From Patescibacteria group bacterium (GTDB taxonomy: Bacteria; Patescibacteriota; Microgenomatia; UBA12405): DNA of 36,173 nucleotides. The notes under the pieces were generated by a model that was not told the origin of the DNA, ran no database searches, and saw only the letters and a program-made list of their open reading frames with translations. The stretch's first letter is position 1; each line of letters starts with the position of its first letter. The DNA lies in NCBI GenBank assembly GCA_023380755.1, contig JAMCSD010000002.1:86022-122194 (forward strand), written 5' to 3'. Below are positions 3,420 through 28,494 of this stretch, in pieces. The position numbers and the translations under genes were made by a program.

Positions 3420-3421
3420 AA

Positions 3422-11132: not shown

Positions 11133-11192
11133 TACTCACTTACTTTAACATGATTTTGCAAATTTGAGCGATTCGTGGCACCATAATGGGCA
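11133..11192. promoter_or_regulatory. Putative divergent promoter region between the Wzt-like gene and the CofD/YvcK-like gene
   Basis: The only divergent intergenic gap in the window (60 bp, AT-rich). A CATAAT -10-like hexamer on + lies only a few nt upstream of the ATG at 11193. No convincing -35 seen. Confidence 0.35.
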
Positions 11193-12170
11193 ATGGAAAA
11201 GAGTCTTAAAATATGTACTATTGGCGGTGGAACTGGAATGCCCGTAGTGAACAAAGCCCTGGTAAAGGCTGGTTTTCGGAATGTTTCCTCCATAGTGACT
11301 ACTTTTGATAGCGGAGGGGATACTGGCCGATTAAGAACCGATGAACGGGGAAGGATATTAGCCTATTCGGACTACTGGCGGTCATTAATCTCACTTTGGG
11401 TAGATGGAGAACAAAAGGAGTTGTGGGAAGAAATGCTACGATACCGGGATGGAAGATCAAGAAACTTCGGTAATTTATTTTTCCAATTTATGACCGAAAA
11501 ATTGGGCGACCTGAGTGATGTCGGTGATTATTTTGCCAAGTTAATGAACGCTGACATGAGAGGGACAGTGATACCGGTAACGTTAACACCATCAGAGATG
11601 TGCTTTCGAACGAAAAGCGGCAGAGAATTTTGCGGGGAGCACCGATTGGATGAGATGAGAATGTCAGCCGACATGGTGGAAGTAGTCTGGTTACAGGATA
11701 AGGTCAGAGCGAACGAAAAGGCCATTAAAGCAATAAAAGAAGCCGATTACCTAATTATCTGTCCAGGGAGCCTGTACGGATCAGTCATAATTAATTTCTT
11801 ACCTGTAGGGATGAAGGAGGCGTATCAGCAATCAAACGCAAAAAAATACCTGATCACCAACATAATGTCGGTGGCGAATGAAAACCACGGTTATGATCAG
11901 GAAAGCTATTTGGAGATTATGGAAAAGTATTTGGGAGTTAATAGCTTAGATCTGATTATTATGGCTGACCTGAAGTGTCTGGATCGAAAAAATTTAAAAA
12001 GGGCACTCTATTCGTATGAGTTAGAAAGATCTTTCCCGATAAGTTATAAAAATAACTGTAGAATTAAGACGGTCAAAGCGGATATAGCTTTAATCGAAAA
12101 AGGTCACGGACGCTTACGCCACAGTGAAAAGAAGTTGAGTGATTACTTAGCCATGCTATTATTGAAATAA
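11193..12170 (+). CDS. CofD/YvcK family protein (2-phospho-L-lactate transferase / gluconeogenesis-factor-like)
   Basis: CTIGGGTGMPVVNKAL, TTFDSGGDTGRLR and IICPGSLYGSVIINFLPVGMKEA match the YvcK/CofD layout (GGGTG, DxGGxxGRLR, PGSLYxS). Confidence 0.88.
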   Translation: MEKSLKICTIGGGTGMPVVNKALVKAGFRNVSSIVTTFDSGGDTGRLRTDERGRILAYSDYWRSLISLWVDGEQKELWEEMLRYRDGRSRNFGNLFFQFMTEKLGDLSDVGDYFAKLMNADMRGTVIPVTLTPSEMCFRTKSGREFCGEHRLDEMRMSADMVEVVWLQDKVRANEKAIKAIKEADYLIICPGSLYGSVIINFLPVGMKEAYQQSNAKKYLITNIMSVANENHGYDQESYLEIMEKYLGVNSLDLIIMADLKCLDRKNLKRALYSYELERSFPISYKNNCRIKTVKADIALIEKGHGRLRHSEKKLSDYLAMLLLK

Positions 12171-12967
12171 TGGATATTGTTAAAGAATTGGTTGAAGTAT
12201 GCCGGCATGGTGAATTATTAGGCCAGATAACTGCTAGGGAAATAAAATCAAGATATAAACAGTCGGTATTGGGTTATTTGTGGGTGATTGTTAACCCTCT
12301 TTTTCAGATGTTAGTGATGAGTTTTGCCTTTTCCGTAGTTTTAAAGATTCCGACAAATGCCAGCGAAAACATACCTTATTCAATATTTTTGTATGTGGCG
12401 CTCTTGCCATGGACACTATTTGCCAATTCATTAGCTTCGGCAAGCAATTCCTTAGTGGGGAACTCAAGTTTAATTACAAAAATTTATTTTCCTCGTACCA
12501 TACTGGTCATTTCAACGGTTATAGCTAAGGTTGTTGACTTTTTTTATGCCTCAACTATTTTAATAATTTATTTAGTGGTATTGCGAATTCCAATTAACCT
12601 AAATGTCTTATGGGTAATTCCTATTTTTATAATTCAAATGATTTTTACATTAGGATTATCTTTTTTCTTAGCCGCAGCAAATTTGTTATACCGCGATATT
12701 CAATACCTGCTTGGTTTGGTACTAATGCTGTGGATGTATTTAACCCCGGTAATTTATCCGGCAGACATCGTACCTGAGAAGTTAAGATTTATATACCAGT
12801 TAAATCCGATGAGTGTCATTATTAATGCCTATCGACAAACGATTTTAGGGGGAGGTATGCCGAACTTAACTAGTTTAGGTATTGGAGTATTAGTGTCAAT
12901 TGTTACCTTACTAATTGGACTAAAATACTTTAAAATCAAAGAAAAAATATTTGCCGACAACATTTAG
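12170..12967 (+). CDS. ABC-2 type polysaccharide export permease (Wzm/TagG-like)
   Basis: ITAREIKSRYKQSVLGYLWVIVNPLFQMLVMSF, RDIQYLLGLVLMLWMYLTPVIYP and LNPMSVIINAYRQTIL signatures; 6 TM. Confidence 0.95.
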   Translation: MDIVKELVEVCRHGELLGQITAREIKSRYKQSVLGYLWVIVNPLFQMLVMSFAFSVVLKIPTNASENIPYSIFLYVALLPWTLFANSLASASNSLVGNSSLITKIYFPRTILVISTVIAKVVDFFYASTILIIYLVVLRIPINLNVLWVIPIFIIQMIFTLGLSFFLAAANLLYRDIQYLLGLVLMLWMYLTPVIYPADIVPEKLRFIYQLNPMSVIINAYRQTILGGGMPNLTSLGIGVLVSIVTLLIGLKYFKIKEKIFADNI

Positions 12968-12973
12968 AAGCTT

Positions 12974-14698
12974 ATGTCACAAAAAAAGATTAAAAGACAA
13001 CGAACGACTCCCGGCGATAGAAAAAAGGAAGAAATTACAATTGTTAATGGACTAAGCATATTAAAAATTCTTAAAGAAAATTGGGTCTTCTTAGCTTTAC
13101 TACTGTTGGGAACTGTTGCAATTTATTTCAATTCGCTGAAAGGTAATTTTGTTTCCGATGATTATGCGTCGATTCCGCAGAATCCCATGGTAACATCGTT
13201 TACTTATATGTTAAGTGGTCTATTTGTGGGGATGACTAATTGGTTTTTGGCAACAGTGTTTGGAATCCAAAATACGGTACCATATCATATTTTAAATTTG
13301 GGTTTTTATTTATTGGCTTTAGTAGCAGTATTTGTGTTTGTGTATCTTATTGCTGGAAGACGGATTGCCACTTTTTCGTCTTTATTGTTTGCTGTTTTGC
13401 CAATACACGTAGAGGCGGTTTCTTGGGTATCGGGTAAGCCATATATAATTACAGGCTTTTTTATCCTATTAGCAATAATCGGATTTTGGCAATATTTAAC
13501 TACAGCAAAAAGGAATTATTTGTGGTTAATAATTGGAGGTTCAATATTAGCTTTTTTCACTGATAGGGTAAGGTCATTTTCAATACTGTTGATAATCTTT
13601 TTATTGGCAATTAGTTTTTTGGGTAAAAAAGGTATAAAGATAGACTGGAAAAAGGTCTTATTAGTCATGTTCGGCCTGGGATTGATCGCGGTTATTTTGA
13701 TGGTACCGCTGATTAGCAGCCGGATAAATAGTGTTAATAGCGGCTATAACGATTCCGGTAGTATATTTTATGACCCCTTTTTCCAGTACCCCACGGCGAT
13801 AGCAAAGTATCTCCAGCTAGTTATCTTCCCTTTTGATTTGACGTTATATCATACAATGTATATTTTGCCGGTGTGGTTGAATTGGCTGATAGTATTAATT
13901 TATGTAACCAGCTGCGCCTATTTTTGGTTTAAAAATCGATTAGTATCATTTAGTCTGCTATTTATTTTTATAGCCACGTTACCTTCAATGGCGCCAGTCA
14001 AGGTTAGCTGGTTGGTAGCGGAAAGATATATGTTTTTAGGAGCCTTAGGTGTCTGCATCATTGCAGCAGTAGTTTTGTCGCATTTATATAATAAAAGCCG
14101 GGCTTTGGTAATGGTAATCCTAGCAATGATTGCTTCAGTCTATGGATATCGTATATATATGAGGAATATTGATTGGTCGACCAATCATAATTTGTGGGTC
14201 AATACTTGTCAGGTATCGCCGAACAGTCACAATGCATGGAATAATATTGGGGATGATTACGATAAATTGAAGGACTATACTGATGCAGTTAAGGGGTTTA
14301 CCCAATCTACTATCGTGAAACCAAATTATGCCGATGCTTATCATAATCGAGGAAATATTTTCTTTAAGACGGGAAGGCTTGATTTAGCCAGGGATAGTTA
14401 TATGACAGCGATCTATTACTCCCCCACCCTCTACCATTCATATTTGAGCTTGACCCAAATAGATTTGATGGAGAAAAGGATGGATTTAGCGATTCAACAT
14501 GCCCAAAAGGTAACTGAAATACAGCCGAATGACCCACAATCATGGTATGTGATGGGAGTAGTTTTGGCTCAAGTAGGTAACAAAGAGGAAGCGATAAAAT
14601 CGATGAAGAATGCTTTATTGCTAAATCCTAATTATTCACCAGCTCAACAAGCACTAAGCCAATTATCTCAGGTACCAGAACCTACAACACAAAAATAG
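12974..14698 (+). CDS. TMTC-like polytopic membrane protein (GT-C-type) with C-terminal TPR repeats
   Basis: FVSDDYASI near TM1 and FAVLPIHVEAVSWVSGKPYIITGFFILLAIIGF resemble the TMTC signature. About 4 C-terminal TPRs (NNIGDDYDKLKDYTDAVKGFTQSTIVKPNYADAYHNRGNIFFKTGRLDLARDSY...). Confidence 0.88.
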   Translation: MSQKKIKRQRTTPGDRKKEEITIVNGLSILKILKENWVFLALLLLGTVAIYFNSLKGNFVSDDYASIPQNPMVTSFTYMLSGLFVGMTNWFLATVFGIQNTVPYHILNLGFYLLALVAVFVFVYLIAGRRIATFSSLLFAVLPIHVEAVSWVSGKPYIITGFFILLAIIGFWQYLTTAKRNYLWLIIGGSILAFFTDRVRSFSILLIIFLLAISFLGKKGIKIDWKKVLLVMFGLGLIAVILMVPLISSRINSVNSGYNDSGSIFYDPFFQYPTAIAKYLQLVIFPFDLTLYHTMYILPVWLNWLIVLIYVTSCAYFWFKNRLVSFSLLFIFIATLPSMAPVKVSWLVAERYMFLGALGVCIIAAVVLSHLYNKSRALVMVILAMIASVYGYRIYMRNIDWSTNHNLWVNTCQVSPNSHNAWNNIGDDYDKLKDYTDAVKGFTQSTIVKPNYADAYHNRGNIFFKTGRLDLARDSYMTAIYYSPTLYHSYLSLTQIDLMEKRMDLAIQHAQKVTEIQPNDPQSWYVMGVVLAQVGNKEEAIKSMKNALLLNPNYSPAQQALSQLSQVPEPTTQK

Positions 14699-14702
14699 GA
14701 AT

Positions 14703-15863
14703 TCAGTTATGGTCTTTGAGATGAAGATGTCTAAAACAACGGTATTCGGTAGCAGCGATGTTTTCCCAAGAATATTTTCCTAATAGCTTTTCTCCTTGAA
14801 GGTTAGAAAAATTTTTATGTTGGTACAATTCTAAAATTTTTTGGGCAACAGCTTGTGTGTCACCAATGGAAAAACGATAGATTTCATATTTGTGGTAGAT
14901 AAGTTTGTAAGCGGGTAGATCATAAGCCAAAGCAGGAAGCCCGGAACAGACGGCTTCCAGAAGAGCAATACCGAAGCTTTCGGTGCGGCTGAGGAACAAA
15001 AAGAATCGGCTTTTTTTTATAGTGGCATATTTTTCAGTACCATGGAGATAACCAAGGAAGGAAATATTCTTTTCAAGCGAATATTGTTGGATACGGGATT
15101 TAAAAGCCTTTAAGGTTTGAGAGTCTCCTGAGCCCATGATCGCCAATTTAAAATTTGGTAATTTGGGTTTTATTAGTCTTAGGACTTCAAGCATGTCATA
15201 AATTCCTTTTGCAGGATTTAGGCGTCCAATAAAGAGAGCATCAAAGATCTTTTGTGACGAAGAAGCCTCTTTTATATAAGTATTTTCGATACCGAAATTG
15301 GTTTGAAAAACCTGACTTTGTCGGAAACCATTTTCAAGAAGATATTCATTAAGTTGTGGGGTAGAAGCAAAAATTATATCCGCTCTTTTTATAAAAATAA
15401 GGCTGAGACGATAAAAGAGCCAAGCGAGTAACCGAACAAATTTGTTGCCTTCGACAAAAAGATTAACGGTATTATCAAAAACTGTTACCCAGATTGTGTT
15501 TGGGAAAAATAATTTAATAAAGAAAGGGGTAATAACCAAGTCAAGGACAGACGAGATGGAGTAAACTATTTCAAAACGATTTTTAATACAGGACTTTATT
15601 TGAGAGATAGCCAAAATATTCCGTTTAAAAGATTCAAACATGAATTGGTAAAGACTGCTCGTGAGGTTAGAAGTGTGGGACAATTCGATAAAGTCGAAGT
15701 CGGTGCCAATTATGCCTAAGTCGATAATATTTTTTTTTAATTCCTGATTACCCCAGAAGGTGACTCTCTGGTGCCATTGTTTGATCTTAAGTAATAAGGG
15801 AATGATGTTGGCATGCTCGAGAGTAGTACCAATAATTAGTATTCGTGGAATTTTAGTCGGCAT
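14703..15863 (-). CDS. Glycosyltransferase family 4
   Basis: FIGRLNPAKGIYDMLEVL and FLFLSRTESFGIALLEAVCSGLPALAYD (EX7E). Confidence 0.93.
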   Translation of the reverse strand: MPTKIPRILIIGTTLEHANIIPLLLKIKQWHQRVTFWGNQELKKNIIDLGIIGTDFDFIELSHTSNLTSSLYQFMFESFKRNILAISQIKSCIKNRFEIVYSISSVLDLVITPFFIKLFFPNTIWVTVFDNTVNLFVEGNKFVRLLAWLFYRLSLIFIKRADIIFASTPQLNEYLLENGFRQSQVFQTNFGIENTYIKEASSSQKIFDALFIGRLNPAKGIYDMLEVLRLIKPKLPNFKLAIMGSGDSQTLKAFKSRIQQYSLEKNISFLGYLHGTEKYATIKKSRFFLFLSRTESFGIALLEAVCSGLPALAYDLPAYKLIYHKYEIYRFSIGDTQAVAQKILELYQHKNFSNLQGEKLLGKYSWENIAATEYRCFRHLHLKDHN

Positions 15864-17298
15864 GAGAAAACTGGCGAGATATTATGTAATTAGCTATATT
15901 AAGAGCATTTTGGGGGAGGATATTCAAATAAAATTTGAAGTTTTGAAAAAAAGCTAAAAGACGTATTTTATGAATAAGTTCTAGATATTCTTTATTGTAT
16001 CTATATTCTGTATTCAGAAAAATCCGATTGTCTAGCAGATGAAAATTAATAGCGGTTAGGTCACGAAGCGTAATGGAAGGCAGTTGAACAAAGAGCCGGC
16101 TATAATCCATATTATCTGAGACTAAGTTAATTCGTTGGGCTGAAGGCCAAATAACGGTTCCCGGATAGGGAGTCAAAATGTAAATTTGGGTATTATCAAG
16201 AGGGTACTTCTTCATAAAATCAAAAGTATCCTGGAGGTCGTGGACGGTTTCCCCTGGAGTACCAACAATGTAACCGCTACTAGTCGTAATCTGGTAACGA
16301 CGGCAAAGAGTAACGGCCCGGCGGTTGTCTTCGACAGTAACTGAATGTTGCTTAAGGTAATCAAGAATTTTCGGAGAAGCACTTTCTAAACCAAAAATTA
16401 ATCTTTTAACATTCATTTCCTTTAGAATTTTGCAGGTTTTTTCATCAATTAAATTCGCCCGGGCATAGCCTATAAATTTAATTCGGTGATGAAGATTTTC
16501 GGCAATAATAAGATCTTTTAATTCTACTAATCGGTTATAGGGCGCAATGAATAAATCGTCCCAGAACATAATGCCGTCTACTTGGTAATCGGCAATAAGT
16601 TTCTTTATTTCATTGACTATATATAGAGGAGAATGAAACCGAACCCTTCCCCATTGAACCGGGGAACCGCAAAATACACAATGGTAGGGGCAACCTCGAC
16701 TGGTCATCACCGTTGCTAGACGCTTAATGCCATAAGGGTTGAGTTGTTTTTGTAAATAGACTTCTTTCATGGGAGTCAGATTACGGGCCGGATAAGGAAG
16801 AAGGTCTATATTTGGTAATAATGGCCGTCTTGGAGTAACAATGAGCTTATTTTTCGAGATAAAGAGTATCCCTTTAATTTTTTCTAAATGAATTGACGGA
16901 AATTTTTTTGATTTACTAAATAAAGTCAGAATTTCCAAAAGCGTTTCTTCACCTTCTCCGACGACACCAATGTCAAAGGGCTGAGAAAATGATTTGGGGG
17001 AAGCCGTAATATGAACTCCGCCAATGAGCAAGGGAACGGATAATCTTTTTTTTAAGGCGATAGCCACCTTTTTAGTATCATTAAAAAGAAGAGTATCACT
17101 AGTAAAACCAACAATGTCAGGCTTAGAGGCTAGAATTTGTTTTAGGGGGTTAAATCCTTCGACAATGGTAACTTTTATATTAGGTGATTTGTTAAGGATG
17201 TAAGCAGCCAGAGAGGTAAGGCCGAAGTGGGGCATGCTCATCTGGCTTTTCCAAACGTTCACAAGTGTTAGTCTTAAAATTTTCTTATTGATAGCCAT
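15853..17298 (-). CDS. B12-binding-domain radical SAM protein
   Basis: N-terminal KPDIVGFTSDT...LIGGVHITASP...VVGEGEETLLEIL; radical SAM motif SRGCPYHCVFC (CX3CX2C). Confidence 0.93.
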   Translation of the reverse strand: MAINKKILRLTLVNVWKSQMSMPHFGLTSLAAYILNKSPNIKVTIVEGFNPLKQILASKPDIVGFTSDTLLFNDTKKVAIALKKRLSVPLLIGGVHITASPKSFSQPFDIGVVGEGEETLLEILTLFSKSKKFPSIHLEKIKGILFISKNKLIVTPRRPLLPNIDLLPYPARNLTPMKEVYLQKQLNPYGIKRLATVMTSRGCPYHCVFCGSPVQWGRVRFHSPLYIVNEIKKLIADYQVDGIMFWDDLFIAPYNRLVELKDLIIAENLHHRIKFIGYARANLIDEKTCKILKEMNVKRLIFGLESASPKILDYLKQHSVTVEDNRRAVTLCRRYQITTSSGYIVGTPGETVHDLQDTFDFMKKYPLDNTQIYILTPYPGTVIWPSAQRINLVSDNMDYSRLFVQLPSITLRDLTAINFHLLDNRIFLNTEYRYNKEYLELIHKIRLLAFFQNFKFYLNILPQNALNIANYIISRQFSHAD

Positions 17299-18284
17299 TA
17301 TTTGAATTCGGGTAAACCTATTTTGAAAAACATATAAAATTTACCGGAACCAAAATACATATGTTTAATGATCGATAAATCTGATTGTTGACGTTGGGAT
17401 TGTACTTGAAAACGTTTTTGAAGAGTTTTGGGAAAATGATAAATGTTCCATAAATAAGCTTTTATGTAAAGGTAAACTAATCTAAATCGAAGATTAAATA
17501 TGAAGAGAATAATTTCTGATAAGTTGATTAAAAAATATAAAGGTAAGATGAAAATAAGAGTGGTTAACTGATAATTTTTCAGGAGGGTTAAAAGGTTATT
17601 TCTTTCGGAATAGTAACGGCGAAGAATTGTCGAACGATAATTGCCTGTTTTTGGAGGGCCACCACCGGCTGATTGGCCAGCCAGGTGGAATAATTTGGCT
17701 TCGGGTACAGAAAGGATATCAAAACCCATGAGGCGAATACGCCAGCAGAGGTCAACATCTTCATGGAACATAAAATAATCGCCATCAAAAGTACCAGCCT
17801 TAAAAAACAATTCTTTGGAAATAAAAAGCGAACTGCCTTCAGCGTAAAACATTTTAGGATAAGTTAAAGGAAAACCGAATATATCTGCAGCAATTCCAGT
17901 GTGGTAAAGGGTTTTTCCGTCGTAACTCAAAATTGAGGTAGTAGCGATTCCTGGATGAAAGGCTTCATAATTGGAAATAAGAATTTCGATTGTATCTTTG
18001 GCTATCTTGGAATCGTTATTAATAAAATATAGATATTCACCAGTAGCTTTTTTGGCTGCCAGATTATTACCTTGAGCAAAGCCAACGTTTTTATTAGAAC
18101 TAATTAAGAGACAGTTTTTATATTTGGGCAGACGTAACAAATCTAGGCTGTGATCGGGAGAATGATTATCGAAGACGACAATTTCAATGTTGGAGTAGGA
18201 TGAATTCAAGACGGAGTCGACGCAGGCTGGTAGGCAGGAAGAACCATTATAGTTGAGGATTATGACAGAAACTTTAGTTGGCAT
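17298..18284 (-). CDS. Glycosyltransferase family 2 (rhamnosyltransferase-like)
   Basis: VSVIILNYNGSSCLPACVDSVLNSSY, YFINNDSK and FHEDVDLCWRIRLMGF. Confidence 0.93.
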   Translation of the reverse strand: MPTKVSVIILNYNGSSCLPACVDSVLNSSYSNIEIVVFDNHSPDHSLDLLRLPKYKNCLLISSNKNVGFAQGNNLAAKKATGEYLYFINNDSKIAKDTIEILISNYEAFHPGIATTSILSYDGKTLYHTGIAADIFGFPLTYPKMFYAEGSSLFISKELFFKAGTFDGDYFMFHEDVDLCWRIRLMGFDILSVPEAKLFHLAGQSAGGGPPKTGNYRSTILRRYYSERNNLLTLLKNYQLTTLIFILPLYFLINLSEIILFIFNLRFRLVYLYIKAYLWNIYHFPKTLQKRFQVQSQRQQSDLSIIKHMYFGSGKFYMFFKIGLPEFK

Positions 18285-19794
18285 AATTACGATATTTCCA
18301 TTTAAGTTTCAGGTCATATGAAATAAAGTGGAAAATACTTTTGATGATACCAAAGTAGACGCTAGCCCGTTGATTAATAAAAATTATGAAGAACTTTAGG
18401 CTAATATTTAAGATTAGAGGCGGCTTAAAGGAACGATACCAGCGACGGGCGATAATCCAGTCGGCAACTCTTTTTGGCAGAATTGGCAGTAGCATGAAAA
18501 AGAACTGAAAATTTTTAAAGGAAAGAGCGGGATCGAAATCATTTTTATTACCAAAACCGACAACTAATGAAGTATTGGTTAAACCCCGGTTAATATGATC
18601 AACATCCCCCGGCTTTAACATTTTAGCTTTAAGGGCGTGCTGGATAATTTCCGCTTTAGGAAAATATTGAAGCCAATAAGCATTAATAACGGTAGGACGT
18701 AATTCGTTATAGAAATGGAGCGCCTCTTCATATTCTTTTATGCCTTCGGTGGGAATGTTGAAGATATGATCTATCGAAAACTTTAGCCCAGCATCGTGGC
18801 AACTTTTAGCCGCCCGGCGGATATCATCATTACTTTCGTGACGATTTAAAATTTTATGACGGGTATTTTCTGAAGCACTTTGAATACCGAAAAGTAAAAA
18901 GTAACAACCAGATTTGACTAATTCTTGAGCAATTTGCTCATTTAAAAAGCTAGGATGGGTTAACATGGCGTAAGGTAATCCAACATGGCGCCTGTATAAG
19001 CGACTAAATTCTTTAAGCCAATGGATATCTTGAACAAAAACATCATCCACGAATGTTAATTGTTTAAGATGGTAACGTTTTTTAGCCCAAGATAATTCGT
19101 TAACAATGTTTTGAGGGCTACGACGGCGGATCGGTTTGCCTAAGCCTTTATACACCTGCCGGATAACATTGTTAGCACAATAAGTGCAAGCAAAAGGGCA
19201 GCCTCGGCTAGAAATCGTATAATAATCATCAAAGAATCCAGGGAAGAGACGATAGTAAAGGTCCTTATCCGGAAATGGGAGTGAGTCTAGGTCTTCGATT
19301 AAAGGACGACTGGGATTTTTAATAACTTTTTTACCCTGTTTAAACCAGATGTTTTTGATATCAGTCCGAGATTCACCATTTTTAAAAGAAGCCAAAAGTT
19401 CATCCAAGGCCTGCTCCCCTTCTCCAACACAGACCATATCAACTGATTTTTCCTTGATTACTAATTCAGGAACAGAGGTAGGATGGATGCCACCAAAAAT
19501 AATCGGAGTATTAGGAAGATATTTTTTTATTAATTTTGCTAACTCTAAAGACCGTTGATAATTGATGGTGAAAACAGAAAAACCAATAAGGTCAGGCTTT
19601 TGTTCAATGATTTGGCGTACCAATTGGGGGCGAATATCAAATTTGGCGGAAAGTTTTTCTGACCCAATAACTTCAGTGTGGAAGGTGGCTGGATCAAAGA
19701 CTAAATCAACTTCATGGCCTTTTGATTTAAGATAACTTGAAAGAAATTCAATGGCCAAGCTTTCAACGGCGATACCCACGAAGGTAATTTTCAT
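18274..19794 (-). CDS. B12-binding-domain radical SAM protein
   Basis: KPDLIGFSVFTINYQRSLELA...IIFGGIHPTSVPE...CVGEGEQALDELL; radical SAM motif SRGCPFACTYC. Confidence 0.94.
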   Translation of the reverse strand: MKITFVGIAVESLAIEFLSSYLKSKGHEVDLVFDPATFHTEVIGSEKLSAKFDIRPQLVRQIIEQKPDLIGFSVFTINYQRSLELAKLIKKYLPNTPIIFGGIHPTSVPELVIKEKSVDMVCVGEGEQALDELLASFKNGESRTDIKNIWFKQGKKVIKNPSRPLIEDLDSLPFPDKDLYYRLFPGFFDDYYTISSRGCPFACTYCANNVIRQVYKGLGKPIRRRSPQNIVNELSWAKKRYHLKQLTFVDDVFVQDIHWLKEFSRLYRRHVGLPYAMLTHPSFLNEQIAQELVKSGCYFLLFGIQSASENTRHKILNRHESNDDIRRAAKSCHDAGLKFSIDHIFNIPTEGIKEYEEALHFYNELRPTVINAYWLQYFPKAEIIQHALKAKMLKPGDVDHINRGLTNTSLVVGFGNKNDFDPALSFKNFQFFFMLLPILPKRVADWIIARRWYRSFKPPLILNISLKFFIIFINQRASVYFGIIKSIFHFISYDLKLKWKYRNYAN

Positions 19795-19797
19795 AAG

Positions 19798-20820
19798 TTA
19801 GTAAAGCTTATCATATAACCATTCAACCCCGTTCTTATAGGGCGTATAGCAATGTTGGCAGATCGGGAGTGATGACAGATCCTGTTTAAGATGTTTTTTT
19901 CTTATTGATGAAAATCTCTGACCGTAAAAGAGAGAAAGTAGACTAGATTCTTCGATGTTGCCAAAATTATATTTAGATTCATAATCCAGGCAACAAAGAT
20001 TTATTTGTCCTAAATTATTGATAACTATGGTATTCCAAAGATATTTGCAGGGAAAAGGTGTTTTAGTATAATTTATTTGGTGATGCCCGGCGGTGTTGGC
20101 GACTGCGCCTGAATAGGAGTGGGCACGGTTGGTGCTAACGGAATCGACTTTATCTTTCCAAAAATTTATGAAATCGGAAAGTCGATTATCGTTGTCGGAG
20201 ACTAGGGCCATCGAGAGTCGGACCTTAAGAGAAGATTTTTTTAATTTCCTTTGAGATAAAAAATAATTGATGTTATCTACTGTTTGGGAGTATTTTAATT
20301 TCATAACTTTTTCATAAGAAGTTTTATCAAAACCATTAAAACTGATATTAAGCTCATCAAGACCACTATCCAGAAGGGAGTCGATTAGGGGTTTAGACGG
20401 TAGAGCAAAATTGGAATAGATTTTAATAAAAGAATGAGGGAAATTGTTTTTGAGAAGTTGGATCCGAGTTATCAGTTGTGGATCTGTAAATGGGTCACCA
20501 AATCCGTTTAATATAAAGGCTAAGGGTTGAATTTTGTCTTCGTGGAGACGTTTGATGATGAGATTGAAAGTCTTTTGGTCCATTAAACGACGAGGCCGTT
20601 TCATAATTATTTGGGGGCACATAATACAACGAGCATTACAGCTGTTGGTAGTTTCAATTACAATATTTAATTGTCGAGAACTTTTTAAAAAGCGGGTGTA
20701 CCGGTTTATTTTAAAAAAGATAAATTTTTTATAAAAGTTTGTCGAAGCAAGCCGATCAAAAATGGTGTTAAACCCAGAACTGCTTTCCAGTTGGTTTTTT
20801 AACCAGCGCAAGAGATCCAT
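19798..20820 (-). CDS. Radical SAM protein with a SPASM/twitch-type C-terminus
   Basis: ETTNSCNARCIMCPQ (CX3CX2C); C-terminal CKYLWNTIVINNLGQINLCCLDY...FGNIEESSLLSLFYGQRF...LPICQHCYTPY. Confidence 0.92.
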   Translation of the reverse strand: MDLLRWLKNQLESSSGFNTIFDRLASTNFYKKFIFFKINRYTRFLKSSRQLNIVIETTNSCNARCIMCPQIIMKRPRRLMDQKTFNLIIKRLHEDKIQPLAFILNGFGDPFTDPQLITRIQLLKNNFPHSFIKIYSNFALPSKPLIDSLLDSGLDELNISFNGFDKTSYEKVMKLKYSQTVDNINYFLSQRKLKKSSLKVRLSMALVSDNDNRLSDFINFWKDKVDSVSTNRAHSYSGAVANTAGHHQINYTKTPFPCKYLWNTIVINNLGQINLCCLDYESKYNFGNIEESSLLSLFYGQRFSSIRKKHLKQDLSSLPICQHCYTPYKNGVEWLYDKLY

Positions 20821-21398
20821 TTTTTCTTTTTAAAATCATAACGTCGGATGACTTTGGCTGGGTTGCCGACAGCTACAGAATAAGGCGGAATATCTTTAGT
20901 GACAACGGCATTGGCGCCAATTACGGAACCCCGGCCGATGGTGACATTTTTAAGAATTGAGCATTTAACACCCAAGAGGCAATTATCTTCAATATTTACA
21001 GACCCGTTTTCAGTTAGTGGTTGATCGAAGGGGGATTTATTAACATCATCGTTTCGGTGATCGTGATCACCGATGAAAACATAAGCCGACATAATAATAT
21101 TGTTGCCGATTGTGACGTTATTATTAGCGGTTATAAAAGTATTATTTCCGATATCAACATGGTTGCCGATTTTTAATCGAACCTTATTTTGACTTTGAGT
21201 TTTTTGGCCATTAAATTCGGTGCTGACTGTTATACGACAAAAAGAACCAATGTTGACATAATCACCAATGCTGATATATGGCTCATTATAACTATTTAAG
21301 AAGGGTTTAATAATAGAATGAGACCCGAATGATTTAAATTTGCGACTAACCAAAGCGGTATAAAATTTTCCTATGTAATAAAAAGCAGTGTAGTTCAT
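20799..21398 (-). CDS. Hexapeptide-repeat (left-handed beta-helix) acyltransferase
   Basis: Hexapeptide repeats (IGNHVDIGNNTFITANNNVTIGNNIIM; VTIGRGSVIGANAVVTKDIPPYSVAVGNPAKVIRRYD). Confidence 0.92.
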   Translation of the reverse strand: MNYTAFYYIGKFYTALVSRKFKSFGSHSIIKPFLNSYNEPYISIGDYVNIGSFCRITVSTEFNGQKTQSQNKVRLKIGNHVDIGNNTFITANNNVTIGNNIIMSAYVFIGDHDHRNDDVNKSPFDQPLTENGSVNIEDNCLLGVKCSILKNVTIGRGSVIGANAVVTKDIPPYSVAVGNPAKVIRRYDFKKKKWISCAG

Positions 21399-22411
21399 GA
21401 GCTAAAGGAATAGGAAATGCTTTGAGAGATAACCCGACGATAAATATTGTTTTTGTACCAATCAACTAGAGGTATTAAAAGGTTGGCGGGGATAAAGATA
21501 ACACCAAAAGATATGAGCCAAAAGTAGGGAGAGAACAAATTTTGCCACCGAAACCGAATTAAATAAATAATTTCGCGTATGACCCAGGAAAATTTACCAT
21601 AGTTTTTAATTTGAACTAAACCAATATAGTTACAGGCAATAAAATCTTTGATGAGAAGCTGATTTAACCGGTAATAAGTATTCTCGGGATAGACCGAATC
21701 GACCATTTGTTTCCAGCTAAGGATGGGTGATTTGCTATAGATCGAGGAAATTTTTCGGGTTTGACTAGAAGAGATTCTAACAGCAGTGTTATATTGATGA
21801 ACATAAATGATGGGATGTTTTTTGAAAATGGAGGCAAAAGGGTATATGTGACAGGGAAAAATGTCAGGGTGGAAAGGTGTATCCATAAATTGGCAGCGAA
21901 AGGCCAAACCGGATAACTGATCAAGGGAATCAAAAACGCGGATTATCTTATCGGACGGGGATTTGATGGAGACTTGTTCGTCGATTTCGGAATTAAGAAG
22001 TTTTTTGCGACGGACGGCTATATGAGAGTTTTTGTCAAACCAGTAATAGGGTCGAGTAATCGCCCCGACTTGAGGATATTTTTTAAACAAAGAAATATAA
22101 TATTTAATAGTTCCCGGTGAAAGAAGGTCATCTTGGCCCATGAGCAACAAAATTTCACCATGACAATATCGTCTTCCCCTTTCCAGATTGGCAGGATAAC
22201 CCACATTTTGAGAGTGGGAAATAATTTTTAGGTATGGTAATCTGAGTTTCGAAATAAATTTGAGAGTATTATCGGTCGAACAGTCATCGGAAACAATAAT
22301 TTCTAGATTAGGGTAATTTTGTTTGACAAGGCTATTAATTGTTTCTACGATTGAAGATTCGCCGTTGTAAGTAGGAATGAGGATGGAAAATTGAGGGTTT
22401 ATTGATGCCAT
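21395..22411 (-). CDS. Glycosyltransferase family 2
   Basis: FSILIPTYNGESSIVETINSLVKQNYPNLEIIVSDDCSTDNTL and LLMGQDDLLSPGTI. Confidence 0.93.
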   Translation of the reverse strand: MASINPQFSILIPTYNGESSIVETINSLVKQNYPNLEIIVSDDCSTDNTLKFISKLRLPYLKIISHSQNVGYPANLERGRRYCHGEILLLMGQDDLLSPGTIKYYISLFKKYPQVGAITRPYYWFDKNSHIAVRRKKLLNSEIDEQVSIKSPSDKIIRVFDSLDQLSGLAFRCQFMDTPFHPDIFPCHIYPFASIFKKHPIIYVHQYNTAVRISSSQTRKISSIYSKSPILSWKQMVDSVYPENTYYRLNQLLIKDFIACNYIGLVQIKNYGKFSWVIREIIYLIRFRWQNLFSPYFWLISFGVIFIPANLLIPLVDWYKNNIYRRVISQSISYSFSS

Positions 22412-23412
22412 GTATTGCGACTAAGATTTGTACTTAGGCCTATTTTAATCTGAAACCAACTAAAAGCATAGACAAGGGTAGTCAGCAAACAGGCCAAAGG
22501 GTGAAAAAACCAGGCAGGATCAGGAAAGTGATAAAAACCTATTAAGCTATCTTTTAGCGGGAGTACGATTGATAATGAATAAAGGGCAAAACCAAATGTT
22601 TTATTTTGGTACGACGACCACTGATGATGGCGATACTGTTGAAAGGAATAAAAGTCACGAATCCGACGCTGTTGTTTTTTAATAAATTTTGAGATGGAAC
22701 TTTCACAAAAGCTATGAATAATGGTATTTTTGGTTTTAGCAAAATAGATAGGTTTTAAGCAACGGTTAATCATGTCGATATCAAATAAATATTGGTCTTT
22801 CCCCAGCATCCTTTTTAAGAAGCTGGTGCGGAAAATGGTTCCATTGGCACCAATGGTGGGGTGAGAAGCGTGCGGTTGAAGTTCAATTTTGAGAAAATCA
22901 GGATGGTCTATGGTTGGAAGGGTCAAGCCAGTCCATTTTAAAGAGAGTTGGCTAAAGCGATCGTAAATGCCACAGTAATAGGCATAAGGATCATTGGCGC
23001 CCAACAAAGATGAATAGCGTTCGATAAAGCCAGCCTGAGGTCGATATTCAAAAGATAACGGTTCGGCACCAATTAGCTTCTTATCACTTAAAAGCGGTGA
23101 AAGAGTTTTTTGAAGATAGTCCGAAGTCGGAAGAATATTATCAGAATCCAGTAGACAGACATAATCGCCAGCGGCAGCGCGCAAAGCAGCGGCCTTGCCG
23201 GCTTCTCCAGTTAGTAACTTATTTTTAATTAAACGGCAGTGAAAATCTGTCGCTAATTTGATCGTGTTGTCAGTTGAACCGGCATCGGCAATAATAATTT
23301 CCAGCTTATCAGACGGATAGTTTTGTGATTGAACGGAAGTTAGGCATTTTTTAAGTACTGATCCGGCATTCAGAGTGGGAATAAGAATGCTAATTCTGGG
23401 AAGAGTTGGCAT
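22399..23412 (-). CDS. Glycosyltransferase family 2 with C-terminal hydrophobic segments
   Basis: RISILIPTLNAGSVLKKCLTSVQSQNYPSDKLEIIIADAGSTDNT and VCLLDSDNILP. Confidence 0.93.
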   Translation of the reverse strand: MPTLPRISILIPTLNAGSVLKKCLTSVQSQNYPSDKLEIIIADAGSTDNTIKLATDFHCRLIKNKLLTGEAGKAAALRAAAGDYVCLLDSDNILPTSDYLQKTLSPLLSDKKLIGAEPLSFEYRPQAGFIERYSSLLGANDPYAYYCGIYDRFSQLSLKWTGLTLPTIDHPDFLKIELQPHASHPTIGANGTIFRTSFLKRMLGKDQYLFDIDMINRCLKPIYFAKTKNTIIHSFCESSISKFIKKQQRRIRDFYSFQQYRHHQWSSYQNKTFGFALYSLSIVLPLKDSLIGFYHFPDPAWFFHPLACLLTTLVYAFSWFQIKIGLSTNLSRNTWHQ

Positions 23413-24883
23413 TAAGGGGAAAATCTTTTAACTTTTCAATATATTTTATGCCATAAGTAGCCAGAAATTTGATGTCGTCAAGAGAACGGATAGAAAGTAA
23501 TTTGCGGGTCAGAAATTTAGGTGTGAGGATACCGTGGAATAACTCCTGAACTAAACGTAATTGTTCCGCAGCCGGAATCGGAGACTTCATTACCGGTTGT
23601 CGCATATCAAAATCATCCCAGTTGGTGGTGAGTAGCCAGTGGTTATCCTGACATTGTTTAAATAAAGGTGTCCCCGGGTAAGGGATGACAATGGTGGCTT
23701 GCATGGAATCAGCCAAACCTTCTTTAAAGAGCTGTTTGGCTTGATTGAGTGTTTCCAGAGCATCTGATTTGCTTTCCCATGGGTAGCCAATCATGATGGT
23801 AAGGTGTGGTTCAAGACCGGCTTTTTTGGCTATAGTTAAAGTTTTTTTAGCATCGTCCACCTTAGTTTTTTTATTGATAAGATTTAGAGTTTTTTGGTTA
23901 GAAGATTCCAGACCATAAAGAATAAATCGGAAATTAGCTTGCTTTAAAAGGTTATATTGAGCCTGGTTAAGACAGCCAAAACGCATATTACAACCAAAGG
24001 TAACTTTATGATTGTATCCCCGACTAATAATTTCATGGCACAAATCGTTCAACCATGGCCCAATGGGTAGAGTACCAGAGTCATCAAAAATTTCTTTGAC
24101 TCCTAAATTGATCAAATTTTCAATTTCTTTTAAAGTGTGAGCCACAGAAAAATTTCTGAACGTACCTTGCGGGTGAGTGGTGGTCCATGAACAAAAGGTA
24201 CATTGGCCCCACCAGCAATCGCGACCCGACATAAGATAAGCGCCGGGTTTGTATTTAAAATTGGTGTTGTCATAAGCGTAGAGCTGCCATTTGGTCAGCT
24301 GACGGTCAATTATCGGAAGACTATCAAGTTGGTGGTGTTTAAGAGCAAATTTACCGGTATTAAGTATTTTTCTTTTAAACCTAAAATAAATGCCTGGTTC
24401 CAGTGGAGTTTTTGAAGAAAAGTGATTGGCTAAATTAAGCATCATAAAGTCATAGTCACCACCGGTAATGACAAAATCTACCGGTGAGTGTTGAAGGGAT
24501 TCTTCGGGTAGAGCGGTGACGTGGTCCCCCATCAAAACGGTAATCGGATGCCATTGTTTGGTTTTAGCTTTTTTAATTTGGGAAATAATTTGCCAATGTT
24601 GTTTGATAGCAGGTGTTTTAGTCTCCAAAAAAATAATATCTGGTTGTGTTTCGACCAACCGTTGGAACCATTGGGTATAGGAAATTTTTTCAGCGATAGC
24701 GTCATCCCAAAAAACTTCAAAACCGGCTTTTTTTAATGCAGTAGCTCCATAGGCAGGAATAACCGGATAAATTACATTACCAGTATTAGTCCATTGGAAT
24801 TGACGGTTTTGAGATAAAAAGGCGGTACCTTTTGGGCTCTGGAGCGGCGGATAAGAGATGGAAATCTTAATTTTGTTAGCCAT
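23390..24883 (-). CDS. B12-binding-type radical SAM protein with a CX4CX2C cluster motif
   Basis: Cobalamin-binding-like N-terminus (GATALKKAGFEVFWDDAIAEK...QPDIIFLETKTPAIKQH...VLMGDHVTALPEE); cluster motif GRDCWWGQCTFCSW; C-terminal LTIMIGYPWES...TIVIPYPGTPLF. Confidence 0.9.
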   Translation of the reverse strand: MANKIKISISYPPLQSPKGTAFLSQNRQFQWTNTGNVIYPVIPAYGATALKKAGFEVFWDDAIAEKISYTQWFQRLVETQPDIIFLETKTPAIKQHWQIISQIKKAKTKQWHPITVLMGDHVTALPEESLQHSPVDFVITGGDYDFMMLNLANHFSSKTPLEPGIYFRFKRKILNTGKFALKHHQLDSLPIIDRQLTKWQLYAYDNTNFKYKPGAYLMSGRDCWWGQCTFCSWTTTHPQGTFRNFSVAHTLKEIENLINLGVKEIFDDSGTLPIGPWLNDLCHEIISRGYNHKVTFGCNMRFGCLNQAQYNLLKQANFRFILYGLESSNQKTLNLINKKTKVDDAKKTLTIAKKAGLEPHLTIMIGYPWESKSDALETLNQAKQLFKEGLADSMQATIVIPYPGTPLFKQCQDNHWLLTTNWDDFDMRQPVMKSPIPAAEQLRLVQELFHGILTPKFLTRKLLSIRSLDDIKFLATYGIKYIEKLKDFPLNANSSQN

Positions 24884-24889
24884 AAGGTA

Positions 24890-25858
24890 TTATCCACCAA
24901 TATAGGAATTTTTTTCTGGGTTTATTTGGTGGGCAGAAAATATTGGTTTGGAGGAAAAAAAACCATAAATAAACCAACAACCATAGTAAAAATGAGAAAC
25001 CGGAATGGAAGCCGCAGCCAGGAAAGAAGCGAAAGGATGGTTTTTGGAAACCAGGAATTTAGTTAAAGTAAGAAATAATAGTAATACATAAATGATTAGT
25101 GGAATAAGAGTCACCTTTTGCCTAAAGAGAAAAGGGAGGAGAATTAAGTAGAGAGAGAATATTGAAGGCAGGAAATAACCAATCTTAAATGAATTTTCCG
25201 GATATTTTTTAGCAAAAAAGCCGCGATGAACGGCATATCTTTTTAGCTGTTTAAGGTGGGGTAAAAAGACAGATCGACGATGATGAAAAACGATAATACT
25301 TGGATGATAAAAAATTTTTTGATGAAATTCGTGAATGAGATTACGGCAAAGTAAAGTATCTTCACCTGGCCAGTGATTGATAGGAAAACCCCCAATTTTA
25401 TTAAAGTCTTTTTTTTTGACCATCAGGTTGACACTCGGATAGTCGTCGACGAAACGTGCGGATTGGGGTTGGTTGCGATAAGTTCCCGCTCCCCCGCTAC
25501 CTAAGAAACTACCCCAAAACAGGCCTGAGGCTTTTTGAGCTAAGGAATCATTTTCCGGGGTAAGGCAAGGACCGCAAACGGAGATTAGATTGGGATTAGA
25601 TGAAAACTGTTGAAACGCATTTAAAAGCCAGTTCTTATCAGGGAAAGAGTCGTCGTCAAGGAAGGCTAAAATGTTTCCCCGAGCTTTAGCAGCACCCAGG
25701 TTGCGTTTAACTGAAGGATTGGGAGTTTGGGAATCTTTGTCGGTAATTACGATGACTTCATAATGGCGATAAGTCTGTTGTTTTAGATGATATAAAGTCT
25801 CCTGAAGATATTTAGTACGAACCCTGACTGGGATGATGACAGAAAAAAAAATTTTCAT
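24890..25858 (-). CDS. Glycosyltransferase family 2 with C-terminal TM segments
   Basis: FSVIIPVRVRTKYLQETLYHLKQQTYRHYEVIVI, ILAFLDDDSFPDKNWL and GEDTLLCRNLIHE; hydrophobic C-terminus. Confidence 0.93.
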   Translation of the reverse strand: MKIFFSVIIPVRVRTKYLQETLYHLKQQTYRHYEVIVITDKDSQTPNPSVKRNLGAAKARGNILAFLDDDSFPDKNWLLNAFQQFSSNPNLISVCGPCLTPENDSLAQKASGLFWGSFLGSGGAGTYRNQPQSARFVDDYPSVNLMVKKKDFNKIGGFPINHWPGEDTLLCRNLIHEFHQKIFYHPSIIVFHHRRSVFLPHLKQLKRYAVHRGFFAKKYPENSFKIGYFLPSIFSLYLILLPFLFRQKVTLIPLIIYVLLLFLTLTKFLVSKNHPFASFLAAASIPVSHFYYGCWFIYGFFSSKPIFSAHQINPEKNSYIGG

Positions 25859-26658
25859 AGACCAGTGTTAATCCGCATGGATAATTCTTTGTCAAAAATC
25901 CACTGTCGTTGGTTGTGGTTATCATAATAATGGAGAATCTTTAAACGATAAAAAACGGCGAGAGCATCGATTAAGCAAGTGATAACTGTTTTCATCCCCG
26001 TCGCATGAGTTAAGCTTTTAAAGTTATAGCTAAGCTTAATAGGCGCTTCATATATACGGAAAAATCCTAAGTAATTTGCGACAGATAAAATTTCGAGATC
26101 AAAAGCATAATTTTTTACCATTAATCGGGGCAATACTTTTTCTAACACCTGTCGTTTAAAAATCTTTAAACCTGCCTGAGTATCGCTAACCTTAATATTT
26201 AGTAAAATACGAGCGATTATGCGTGCCCCAAGGCTTATTATTTTCCGGTCAGTAGGATATTGGACGCGCGAAGCCGGATGTAGTTTTGAGGCAACAACGA
26301 TATCAGCTTCATACCATTCCAAGTGTTCAATAACCATAGAAATGCCATTAGGATCAATCTCCATACCCGCATCAATGAAAGCAATGTAATCACCTTTGGT
26401 GCGGGCCATGCCATAGCGGACGGCGAAACCTTTGCCATGGTTATGCGGATAGCCATATAGTTTTAATTTAGGCAGGTGTGACCTTTTGAGTTCTTGGTAT
26501 GAGTGGTCTATCAAGGTGCCGTCAACAACGGCGATGAGCTCATAATCGTAACGGATCTGATCAAGAGTAGATAATATGCCCTTTATGTCAGTTAAAATTG
26601 TCTGTTCTTGTTTATAAATAGGAACAATGACAGATAAAAAGTGATCGGAGTTTTTCAT
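25855..26658 (-). CDS. Polyprenyl/dolichyl-phosphate glycosyltransferase-like GT2 (DPM1/ALG5-like); start set at the internal ATG
   Basis: FLSVIVPIYKQEQTILTDIKGIL, NHGKGFAVRYGMARTKGDYIAFIDAGMEIDPNGISMVIEHL and VSDTQAGLKIFKRQVLEKVLPRL. The ORF track starts at 26709, but M18 at 26658 gives a 4-nt ATGA overlap with the upstream gene stop at 26655. Confidence 0.88.
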   Translation of the reverse strand: MKNSDHFLSVIVPIYKQEQTILTDIKGILSTLDQIRYDYELIAVVDGTLIDHSYQELKRSHLPKLKLYGYPHNHGKGFAVRYGMARTKGDYIAFIDAGMEIDPNGISMVIEHLEWYEADIVVASKLHPASRVQYPTDRKIISLGARIIARILLNIKVSDTQAGLKIFKRQVLEKVLPRLMVKNYAFDLEILSVANYLGFFRIYEAPIKLSYNFKSLTHATGMKTVITCLIDALAVFYRLKILHYYDNHNQRQWIFDKELSMRINTGL

Positions 26659-27746
26659 GAAAGGATCGATTGATAGACCTGTAATGTTTGTTCGGCGGTT
26701 TTTTGCCAAGAGAATTGTCGACTTCTAGTAATTCCTAGATGGCGATATTTCTCTTGAAGACGAGCATCAGAATAAAGAGAAGTTAAAGCCTTTTTTAGGG
26801 TAAAAGGATTATGTGGATTAAAAGAAAGGCCAGCATTACCGGCAATTTCCTCCAAAGAAGTATTCTGACTGTATATAGTCGGGCAACCTGATTGCATGGC
26901 CTCCAGAAGTCCTAGTCCGAAACCTTCGGCATAAGAAGGGTGACAATAAACCGTAGCTAAATTATAAATAACACTCAGATCTTCGTTGGGGACAAATCCG
27001 AGGCAAAACAGTTGACTAAAAGTCTGTTTTTGAAGCCAAAGAAGATCCTGGGTCCAGGGATGATCAACCACATGTTTTTGAGTGGCCGAGGAACCAACAA
27101 TCACTAATGGATAGTTAAGATCACGACAAGTGTTAACCAGGGTGGGAATATTTTTATTCCAATTGATATCGCCAACATAAAGCACAAATTTTTGAGGGAG
27201 AGAGTATTTTTTAACTGTTTGGGAAAGTAGTTTCTGATTATTGATGGGCTGAAAAATAGAATCAGCAGCTAAATAAATAGGAATTATCTTATCTGGGGCA
27301 ACGCCGGTCAGAGTGGAAATGGAATACTTAGAGGTTAAGGAATCGGTAATGAGGCGATCGATGTGTTGTAAACGTTGTTTTTGGAGAAGCCATTTAACTT
27401 CGCCCTTAAACCCCACGGGAAAATGAGATTTAAATTGTCGAGGGATTATATCATGTACGGTTACAACGAGTGGAGTTCGGTGACGCTGCGGCAGGGTTAA
27501 TTCGAAGGGGTCAAAATAAGGATAATGGATTAAATCGTACTTATTAATTTCAGTGTTAGCCGTCGAAACTAAATCAATATGCCAATGGTGGTATTGAGTG
27601 CTGGTTTGGCAATACTTAATTAAAGAATCAGTTAGTCTCGAAGTATAAAAGCCGACGCCGCGGAATTGATTACCATTTTGGGTAGGACTGATATCGATGG
27701 CAATGTTAGGTGTGATGGTGGTATTCATATAGTTTGGCGTAGGCAA
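26655..27746 (-). CDS. Glycosyltransferase family 4
   Basis: TPLVVTVHDIIPRQF, FVLYVGDINWNKNIPTLV and CHPSYAEGFGLGLLEAMQSGCPTIYS (EX7E). The start may be at internal Met7 (27728). Confidence 0.93.
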   Translation of the reverse strand: MPTPNYMNTTITPNIAIDISPTQNGNQFRGVGFYTSRLTDSLIKYCQTSTQYHHWHIDLVSTANTEINKYDLIHYPYFDPFELTLPQRHRTPLVVTVHDIIPRQFKSHFPVGFKGEVKWLLQKQRLQHIDRLITDSLTSKYSISTLTGVAPDKIIPIYLAADSIFQPINNQKLLSQTVKKYSLPQKFVLYVGDINWNKNIPTLVNTCRDLNYPLVIVGSSATQKHVVDHPWTQDLLWLQKQTFSQLFCLGFVPNEDLSVIYNLATVYCHPSYAEGFGLGLLEAMQSGCPTIYSQNTSLEEIAGNAGLSFNPHNPFTLKKALTSLYSDARLQEKYRHLGITRSRQFSWQKTAEQTLQVYQSILS

Positions 27747-28494
27747 TGGGAAATCTTAGAGCCGAGAAAAAAGAAAAGGCGAAACCGGGGAATCCGTCAA
27801 CGTAGCCGCGATGACGAATATATGTTTTTAAAAACCAACAAACAGGCTTAAAAAAGAAGTAAGTGATAAAATTTACAAAATTTAATTGAAGGCGAACGTG
27901 ATCTAACTCTTTGGCGATTATAGTGGTATAGCGATTGTGACGATCAAGATAGCGGTTAAAAGATGAATCAGCATAGTGAAGCAGATCGTGTTGGAGAGTG
28001 GCGGTTTGGCCATCTACTTTAGCTTGTTCATGAACGGAAAGGCAAGGCAGGTGTCCGTGACCTCGTTTATAAAAACGTAATGTTAAGTCGGGGTATTGGC
28101 CGCCTTTTTTAAGGAATTTGCCTAAAAAATAATTACGACGTTTAATCCAAAAACCATTTTCTGGAATAGTATTGATATCTTTAGAAAGAATATGGGAAAT
28201 TTCATTTTTTAATTCCGGACTGACGACCTCATCAGCATCGAGCTGGAGAATCCAATCACTTTTACAATTGTCAATTGCCAGTTGTTTATTAATATGAAAC
28301 ATGGGTTTATTGTCGGTAGAGATAATTTTCGTATGAGGAAATTTCTTGGCGATAGTAACTGTCTGGTCTGAAGACGAACCGTCGACTAAGACGATTTCGG
28401 TGGCTAGACCGGAAACGGACTCGAGGCAGCGGGAAATAAAACTTTCCTCATTATAAGTAGCTATAGCGATAGAAAGAGTGGTTATAGATTTCAT
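27706..28494 (-). CDS. Glycosyltransferase family 2 (WaaE/KdtX-like)
   Basis: LSIAIATYNEESFISRCLESVSGLATEIVLVDGSSSDQTVTIAKKF and DWILQLDADEVVSPEL. Confidence 0.92.
   Translation of the reverse strand: MKSITTLSIAIATYNEESFISRCLESVSGLATEIVLVDGSSSDQTVTIAKKFPHTKIISTDNKPMFHINKQLAIDNCKSDWILQLDADEVVSPELKNEISHILSKDINTIPENGFWIKRRNYFLGKFLKKGGQYPDLTLRFYKRGHGHLPCLSVHEQAKVDGQTATLQHDLLHYADSSFNRYLDRHNRYTTIIAKELDHVRLQLNFVNFITYFFFKPVCWFLKTYIRHRGYVDGFPGFAFSFFSALRFPIAYAKLYEYHHHT

Follow-up and report, generated by a model that had tools for sequence, protein, structure and literature searches.

A widespread glycosyltransferase and radical SAM gene pair with a variant cluster motif in a cell-surface glycan locus of Candidatus Shapirobacteria

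The stretch of DNA analysed here (the window) comprises 36,173 nucleotides of a Patescibacteria group bacterium (assembly GCA_023380755.1, contig JAMCSD010000002.1, positions 86,022 to 122,194) and is a cell-surface glycan locus of a Candidatus Shapirobacteria genome, Candidatus Shapirobacteria being the nearest named genomes to the window protein in the tree of rSAM_C, one of its radical S-adenosylmethionine (SAM) proteins. In this locus rSAM_C is encoded next to a family 2 glycosyltransferase (GT2), GT2_d, and the two form a widespread, tightly coupled pair that recurs in many phyla of bacteria and also in some archaea, as seen in gene identities, synteny, co-occurrence and a variant cluster motif. 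While radical SAM enzymes of the cobalamin (B12)-binding type are already known from sugar and lipid biosynthesis, the pairing of a GT2 with a radical SAM protein that carries this variant motif appears to be new and to have no assigned function; in the open-licence literature on radical SAM proteins and glycosyltransferases in the candidate phyla radiation (CPR)/Patescibacteria, and on radical SAM proteins in polysaccharide loci, no title or abstract describing the pair was found.

The coupling of the two genes is seen at several evolutionary distances. In distant loci outside its own family, where adjacency was counted with tblastn, GT2_d is the immediate upstream neighbour of rSAM_C, in the same orientation, in 49 of 63 cases, most commonly with a 4-bp overlap. 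Across 145 genomes of the phylum, rSAM_C was found in 12 and GT2_d in 11 of those 12 and in no other genome (Fisher p 1e-15, a value that ignores relatedness). A sample of 57 relatives, which covers the genome itself, its family, order and class, contains 34 genomes with both genes and two with GT2_d only (Fisher 1e-13, with relatedness again ignored), and of these two, G026 has its locus cut by a contig end and G036 carries another B12-type radical SAM gene close by. At a match threshold of E <= 1e-20, rSAM_C was found in 35 of the 57, with identities mostly of 60-74% within the family, one of the 35 (G047, 29% identity) being a cross-match to the type of a second radical SAM protein of the locus, rSAM_A. 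In each of the 13 family loci that were mapped, GT2_d, GT2_e, GT4c, GT2_f and PMT1 come after rSAM_C, joined in 12 of them by PMT2, while GT2_c, on the other side of rSAM_C, is present in 11 of the 13 and downstream of rSAM_C in 18 of 56 distant loci. Within the block of ten genes that spans 14703-25858, only rSAM_C with GT2_c/GT2_d is conserved. Wider neighbours recur as well: 31 of 51 loci have a flippase of the Polysacc_synt type up to 6 kb upstream of rSAM_C, and 42 of 52 have a Dpm1-like GT2 no more than 4.5 kb away. The distance matrices of GT2_d and rSAM_C correlate (r 0.61; 0 of 2000 permutations), and as a correlation is likewise seen for GT2_e, what it shows is that the module was transferred jointly and not that the two are in pairwise contact.

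A scan of GTDB with an rSAM_C alignment recovered at least 508 relatives in GTDB species, and the best 80 of these, from which motifs and neighbours were counted, fall in more than 15 phyla, including the cultured Desulfosarcina, Solidesulfovibrio and Fundidesulfovibrio as well as archaeal metagenome-assembled genomes (MAGs) of Methanoperedens and Archaeoglobus. Relatives outside Shapirobacteria and close kin share 49-57% identity, and several phyla appear in more than one place in the tree, a scatter that bins and paralogues could cause. All 80 loci keep three cysteines at the cluster site, spaced as Cx4CxxC in 78 and as Cx7CxxC in two, an Archaeoglobus MAG (L098, RDCWHRKGGGCTFC) and a Chlamydiae MAG (L068, RDCWWRKDGGCTFC), and the canonical Cx3Cx2C occurs in none; the order-level relatives L038 and L039 likewise carry Cx7CxxC. 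The window protein has the Cx4CxxC form, CWWGQCTFC, unlike the other three radical SAM proteins of its locus. This spacing is compatible with radical SAM membership, because variant spacing has been documented, for example in GenD1, and the Radical_SAM domain (PF04055) of rSAM_C scores 56.2 bits against a Pfam cut-off of 29.5. Its B12-binding domain (PF02310) scores 27.8 bits, below the cut-off of 32.1, while the same model reaches E <= 0.01 for each of the 11 members of one tested set (A2); four family members besides rSAM_C also match it. The QNR motif that all 80 loci show near the N-terminus is in part imposed by the search pattern and was given no weight. Plasmid records yielded only distant relatives, below 29% identity among the matches listed, including true HpnJ and BchE. 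On an Eleftheria terrae plasmid (L146 4872-7921), a radical SAM gene is followed by a gene for a cobalamin-dependent protein inside a cluster of glycosyltransferase, deacetylase and epimerase genes.

Among characterised enzymes, rSAM_C has been shown to be related to HpnJ and AprD4. Of the NCBIfam models, that of HpnJ (TIGR03471) scores highest for the window protein as well as for three distant members (131-184 bits); the window protein scores 131.5 bits with it, 95.6 with BchE and 37.9 with AprD4. Membership of these families was rejected, the cut-offs being 577.6 bits for HpnJ (curated HpnJ scores 799.3) and 500 for AprD4 (NF033070), with no cut-off reached for BchE or another listed radical SAM family; indeed, none of the four radical SAM proteins of the block reaches a curated NCBIfam cut-off. 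When aligned with hhalign, rSAM_C and curated HpnJ match at 99.8% over 425 columns, and they share CTFC[SL]W around the cluster and PYPGT, whereas HpnJ has the Cx3CxxC spacing in place of Cx4CxxC. The AlphaFold2 model of rSAM_C (predicted local distance difference test, pLDDT, 89.5) finds its best fold match in AprD4 with paromamine (6fd2; template modelling score 0.71/0.77), followed by MgmA (TIGR04014), TsrM and OxsB, and AprD4 is also its top PDB sequence match. AprD4, a radical SAM 1,2-diol dehydratase that acts on an aminoglycoside, shares the two-domain layout and would have a sugar substrate in common with rSAM_C, but the identity is only 15%. The likeness to MgmA, TsrM and OxsB is in overall architecture, these enzymes acting on protein, amino acid or nucleotide substrates.

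The closest parallel to the pair is offered by the hopanoid pathway, in which the GT2 HpnI adds N-acetylglucosamine to bacteriohopanetetrol, HpnK deacetylates the product, and the radical SAM enzyme HpnJ converts it to a cyclitol ether (PMC12583986). As in this HpnI-HpnK-HpnJ system, where a GT2 loads a membrane lipid with a sugar that a radical SAM enzyme of the B12 type remodels, GT2_d and then rSAM_C may act on a carrier-linked sugar. A hopanoid-locus HpnJ was itself rejected as an identity for rSAM_C: its neighbours are glycosyltransferases, a flippase and GT-C genes and not hpnI, hpnK or other hopanoid genes, no HpnK-type deacetylase was noted beside it, and the flippase and glycosyltransferase surroundings point to a glycan. 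On balance we lean towards a role for rSAM_C in remodelling a sugar or sugar-lipid in a step coupled to GT2_d, whichever the chemistry, a reading that overlaps with the C-methylation and dehydration rivals weighed below. In this scheme, whose order of steps and reaction we infer, GT2_d would transfer a sugar to a membrane-bound acceptor, which the glycan-locus setting makes more likely to be polyprenyl-linked. The [4Fe-4S] cluster of rSAM_C and SAM would then generate a 5'-deoxyadenosyl radical that remodels the transferred sugar or the region of the sugar-lipid bond. Neighbouring glycosyltransferases would extend the modified intermediate, a flippase or ABC exporter would move it, and GT-C enzymes, supplied by the Dpm1-like GT2_e, may decorate the glycan. 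For the radical step itself, an HpnJ-like ring rearrangement and a GenD1-like sugar C-methylation are favoured about equally. A bolder form of the proposal would see GT2_d and rSAM_C as a two-enzyme module widely exchanged among bacteria and archaea, by which a sugar is built on a membrane carrier and its carbon skeleton rearranged to a carbocycle or branched sugar while lipid-linked, giving a glycan building block outside nucleotide-sugar chemistry; this we regard as speculative and rather improbable.

Several observations weigh against this coupled, lipid-linked scheme. About a fifth of the distant loci lack GT2_d next to rSAM_C, and in one relative (G036, L148 4987-9339) GT2_d stands beside a different B12-type radical SAM protein with CPGRCTFC, possibly a non-orthologous replacement of rSAM_C. 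GT2_d (pLDDT of the model 91.9), which has C-terminal helices, is closest in fold to GT2s of the membrane and of wall glycans, among them BcsA, hyaluronan synthase and TarP; the best solved matches are TarP and processive synthases and not polyprenyl-phosphate transferases, and an HpnI-like origin of GT2_d was rejected when BLASTP gave no similarity. Adjacency in glycan loci can also reflect co-transfer without a shared substrate, and the substrate of the pair is itself inferred.

For the chemistry, a first alternative is that rSAM_C is a cobalamin-dependent sugar C-methyltransferase like GenD1 or GenK, which would pass the methyl group of methylcobalamin to a sugar-carbon radical and yield a branched or C-methyl sugar, with GT2_d moving the substrate or the product. 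GenD1, a cobalamin radical SAM enzyme that C-methylates a sugar ring carbon (C-4'' of gentamicin), carries Cx4Cx2C (PMC4340712), and this makes C-methylation a serious rival because a sugar C-methylase then has the same motif spacing as rSAM_C; the two are likened by this spacing, and GenD1 differs in having a soluble antibiotic substrate and a size of 77 kDa. The N-terminal domain, for which every family member tested gives a match to the B12-binding model, and the presence of TsrM, OxsB and MgmA among the structural neighbours of rSAM_C are consistent with such a role. While C-methylation is in addition the commonest reaction of B12-type radical SAM enzymes, neither HpnJ nor BchE, the named families with the highest scores, is a methylase, and a supply of cobalamin is not evident: the FecCD/BtuC-type importer was found in 0 of 33 relatives (it is present in 13 of 14 control genomes), and CbiQ exceeds its cut-off in one of the 33, the genome itself. 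We take C-methylation to be possible, if somewhat doubtful. The same near absence of B12 import genes of the families tested, together with the B12-binding score below the Pfam cut-off and with the AprD4-paromamine complex as top fold and top PDB sequence match, would suit an AprD4-like enzyme that has a B12-domain-like fold, uses no cobalamin and dehydrates or deoxygenates a sugar diol in a glycan precursor. Such a role seems unlikely to us, as the HpnJ and BchE models outscore that of AprD4 and no oxidoreductase is fixed beside rSAM_C, AprD4 working with a dehydrogenase partner. AprD4 itself is not known to use cobalamin. There are then two options, both of which fit the B12-binding score of rSAM_C: the cells obtain cobalamin as well as SAM from a partner in some other way, or the enzyme needs no cobalamin. 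SAM synthetase was found in 21 of the 57 relatives and not in the genome's own assembly, which is 77% complete. The lineage is rich in radical SAM enzymes, with 12 radical SAM domains above cut-off in the 0.8 Mb of this genome, yet SAM synthetase is patchy and the cobalamin importers tested are almost absent.

A reading made from the sequence alone had placed all four radical SAM proteins of 14703-25858 in one dedicated pathway that modifies a glycan, a lipid carrier or a glycosylated peptide. The genes share a strand and overlap or adjoin in an operon-like manner, and a genome of another genus (G018) keeps rSAM_B (67-68%), a GT2, rSAM_A (60-61%) and GT4b in the same order beside the same left anchor, on a contig that begins with GT2_c, which indicates that this insert travels as one cassette, by inheritance or by exchange. 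The single-pathway claim was nevertheless rejected, and we hold it to be very unlikely, because the four genes differ in conservation: under stricter thresholds than for rSAM_C (1e-60 and 1e-30, chosen to exclude many paralogues), close homologues of rSAM_A, rSAM_B and the SPASM protein were found in 4, 4 and 7 of the 57 relatives against 35 for rSAM_C, most relatives have rSAM_C alone of the four, and gene maps show that the content between GT2_c and the CofD/TPR/ABC anchor differs from genome to genome. Gene order is conserved far beyond this genome for the rSAM_C part, and the other three radical SAM genes lie in a variable insert. Nothing was found that points to a glycosylated peptide as target, while the glycan biosynthesis setting was supported. 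That rSAM_C is instead a housekeeping or stress enzyme, present in glycan loci by chance, is the least probable of the alternatives and close to dismissible, as a flippase, GT2_d and a Dpm1-like GT2 recur beside it across phyla and its presence follows that of GT2_d. Two outcomes had been named beforehand as grounds for abandoning the sequence-only reading, a place in a known unrelated cluster and an unconserved neighbourhood, and neither was found for rSAM_C.

The locus consists of a left export anchor, a variable middle (rSAM_A, rSAM_B, the SPASM protein, an acetyltransferase and glycosyltransferases) and a conserved right half (Table 1). Open reading frames and Pfam bear out the ten genes in the order, strand and domain types first described (GT4, B12 and radical SAM, GT2, B12 and radical SAM, radical SAM and SPASM, hexapeptide, GT2, GT2, B12 and radical SAM, GT2), all of them minus-strand genes that overlap or lie almost end to end. 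Three B12-binding-type proteins had been counted, which holds for rSAM_A and rSAM_B and falls short of the Pfam cut-off for rSAM_C; the lack of DxHxxG in all three was confirmed. The ten genes had also been presented as a cassette of their own, but the run continues unbroken past 25858: GT2_e, GT4c and GT2_f come next, then five GT-C-type genes that reach the end of the window, where the 122 kb contig also ends, so that the block is one end of a larger glycan locus. The other three radical SAM proteins have the usual Cx3CxxC motif. In the SPASM protein, which has a SPASM domain of 43.9 bits (cut-off 21.5), it reads CNARCIMC; the sole solved sequence match of this protein is BtrN, across the auxiliary-cluster region, and as the match spans only about 75 residues a dehydrogenase role would be a guess. 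GT2_e overlaps GT2_d by 4 bp and has as its best PDB match the dolichol-phosphate mannose synthase 5mlz (E 1.9e-8, residues 25-210), with ArnC-type 9hwj also matched. Of the GT-C-like genes, PMT1 and PMT4 have PMT/PMT_2 Pfam matches and the other three have none.

Table 1. Genes of the glycan locus in the window
Feature	Position	Strand	Description	Basis
Left anchor	10386..14698		Wzt-like ABC ATPase (-); CofD-like protein, Wzm-like permease and TPR membrane protein (+)	
GT4b	14703..15863	-	GT4 at the end of the variable region	Pfam
rSAM_A	15853..17298	-	B12-binding radical SAM protein, variable region	PF02310 42.5 bits; 4/57 relatives
GT2_a	17298..18284	-	GT2 between rSAM_A and rSAM_B, variable region	Pfam
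rSAM_B	18274..19794	-	B12-binding radical SAM protein, variable region	PF02310 76 bits; 4/57 relatives
SPASM protein	19798..20820	-	SPASM radical SAM protein, variable region	Pfam; CNARCIMC and five C-terminal Cys; 7/57 relatives
HexAT	20799..21398	-	Hexapeptide-repeat sugar O-acetyltransferase (WbbJ/NeuD-like), variable region	Domain and NCBIfam matches
GT2_b	21395..22411	-	GT2, semi-conserved	Pfam and locus maps
GT2_c	22399..23412	-	GT2 overlapping rSAM_C on the side opposite GT2_d	Pfam; 11/13 family loci
rSAM_C	23390..24883	-	Radical SAM protein with B12-binding-like N-terminal domain, CWWGQCTFC	PF04055 56.2 bits; PF02310 27.8 bits
GT2_d	24890..25858	-	GT2 with C-terminal membrane helices, partner of rSAM_C	Pfam GT2; neighbour and co-occurrence counts
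GT2_e	25855..26709	-	Dolichol/polyprenyl-phosphate sugar synthase-like GT2	Pfam GT2; PDB match 5mlz
GT4c	26655..27746	-	GT4 of the conserved core	Pfam; 13/13 family loci
GT2_f	27706..28494	-	GT2 of the conserved core	Pfam; 13/13 family loci
PMT1-PMT5	28491..36173	-	Tandem array of five polytopic GT-C (PMT-like) genes; PMT5 truncated at the contig end	Pfam, hydropathy

Members of the left anchor adjoin the variable region also in three other loci (L026, L027 and L136), and in all of these, as in the window (11193-12170), a CofD/YvcK-like gene (PF01933) sits between the export genes and the TPR membrane gene. Left of the anchor lie further glycosyltransferases, methyltransferases and an AlgX/MBOAT pair, the latter side by side at 1983-4804, which suggests O-acetylation of an exported glycan. 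The region 4804-7533 encodes a protein of 909 amino acids whose C-terminal part is a GT4 domain and whose middle matches DUF4214 weakly. Just left of the window are two further B12-type radical SAM genes (L025 15956-17431 and 18552-19994), 29% and 33% identical to rSAM_B and rSAM_A, respectively.

Should the proposed action of the pair hold, a radical step would be part of ordinary surface-glycan assembly in many bacteria and some archaea, and some cell-surface polymers would hold sugars that current pathway models do not predict. It would also be relevant to why bacteria with genomes of about 0.8 Mb, in which SAM synthetase is often missing and B12 importers of the tested types are nearly absent, retain so costly an enzyme. 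As cultured sulfate reducers have members of the rSAM_C family, the question can be put to a direct test.

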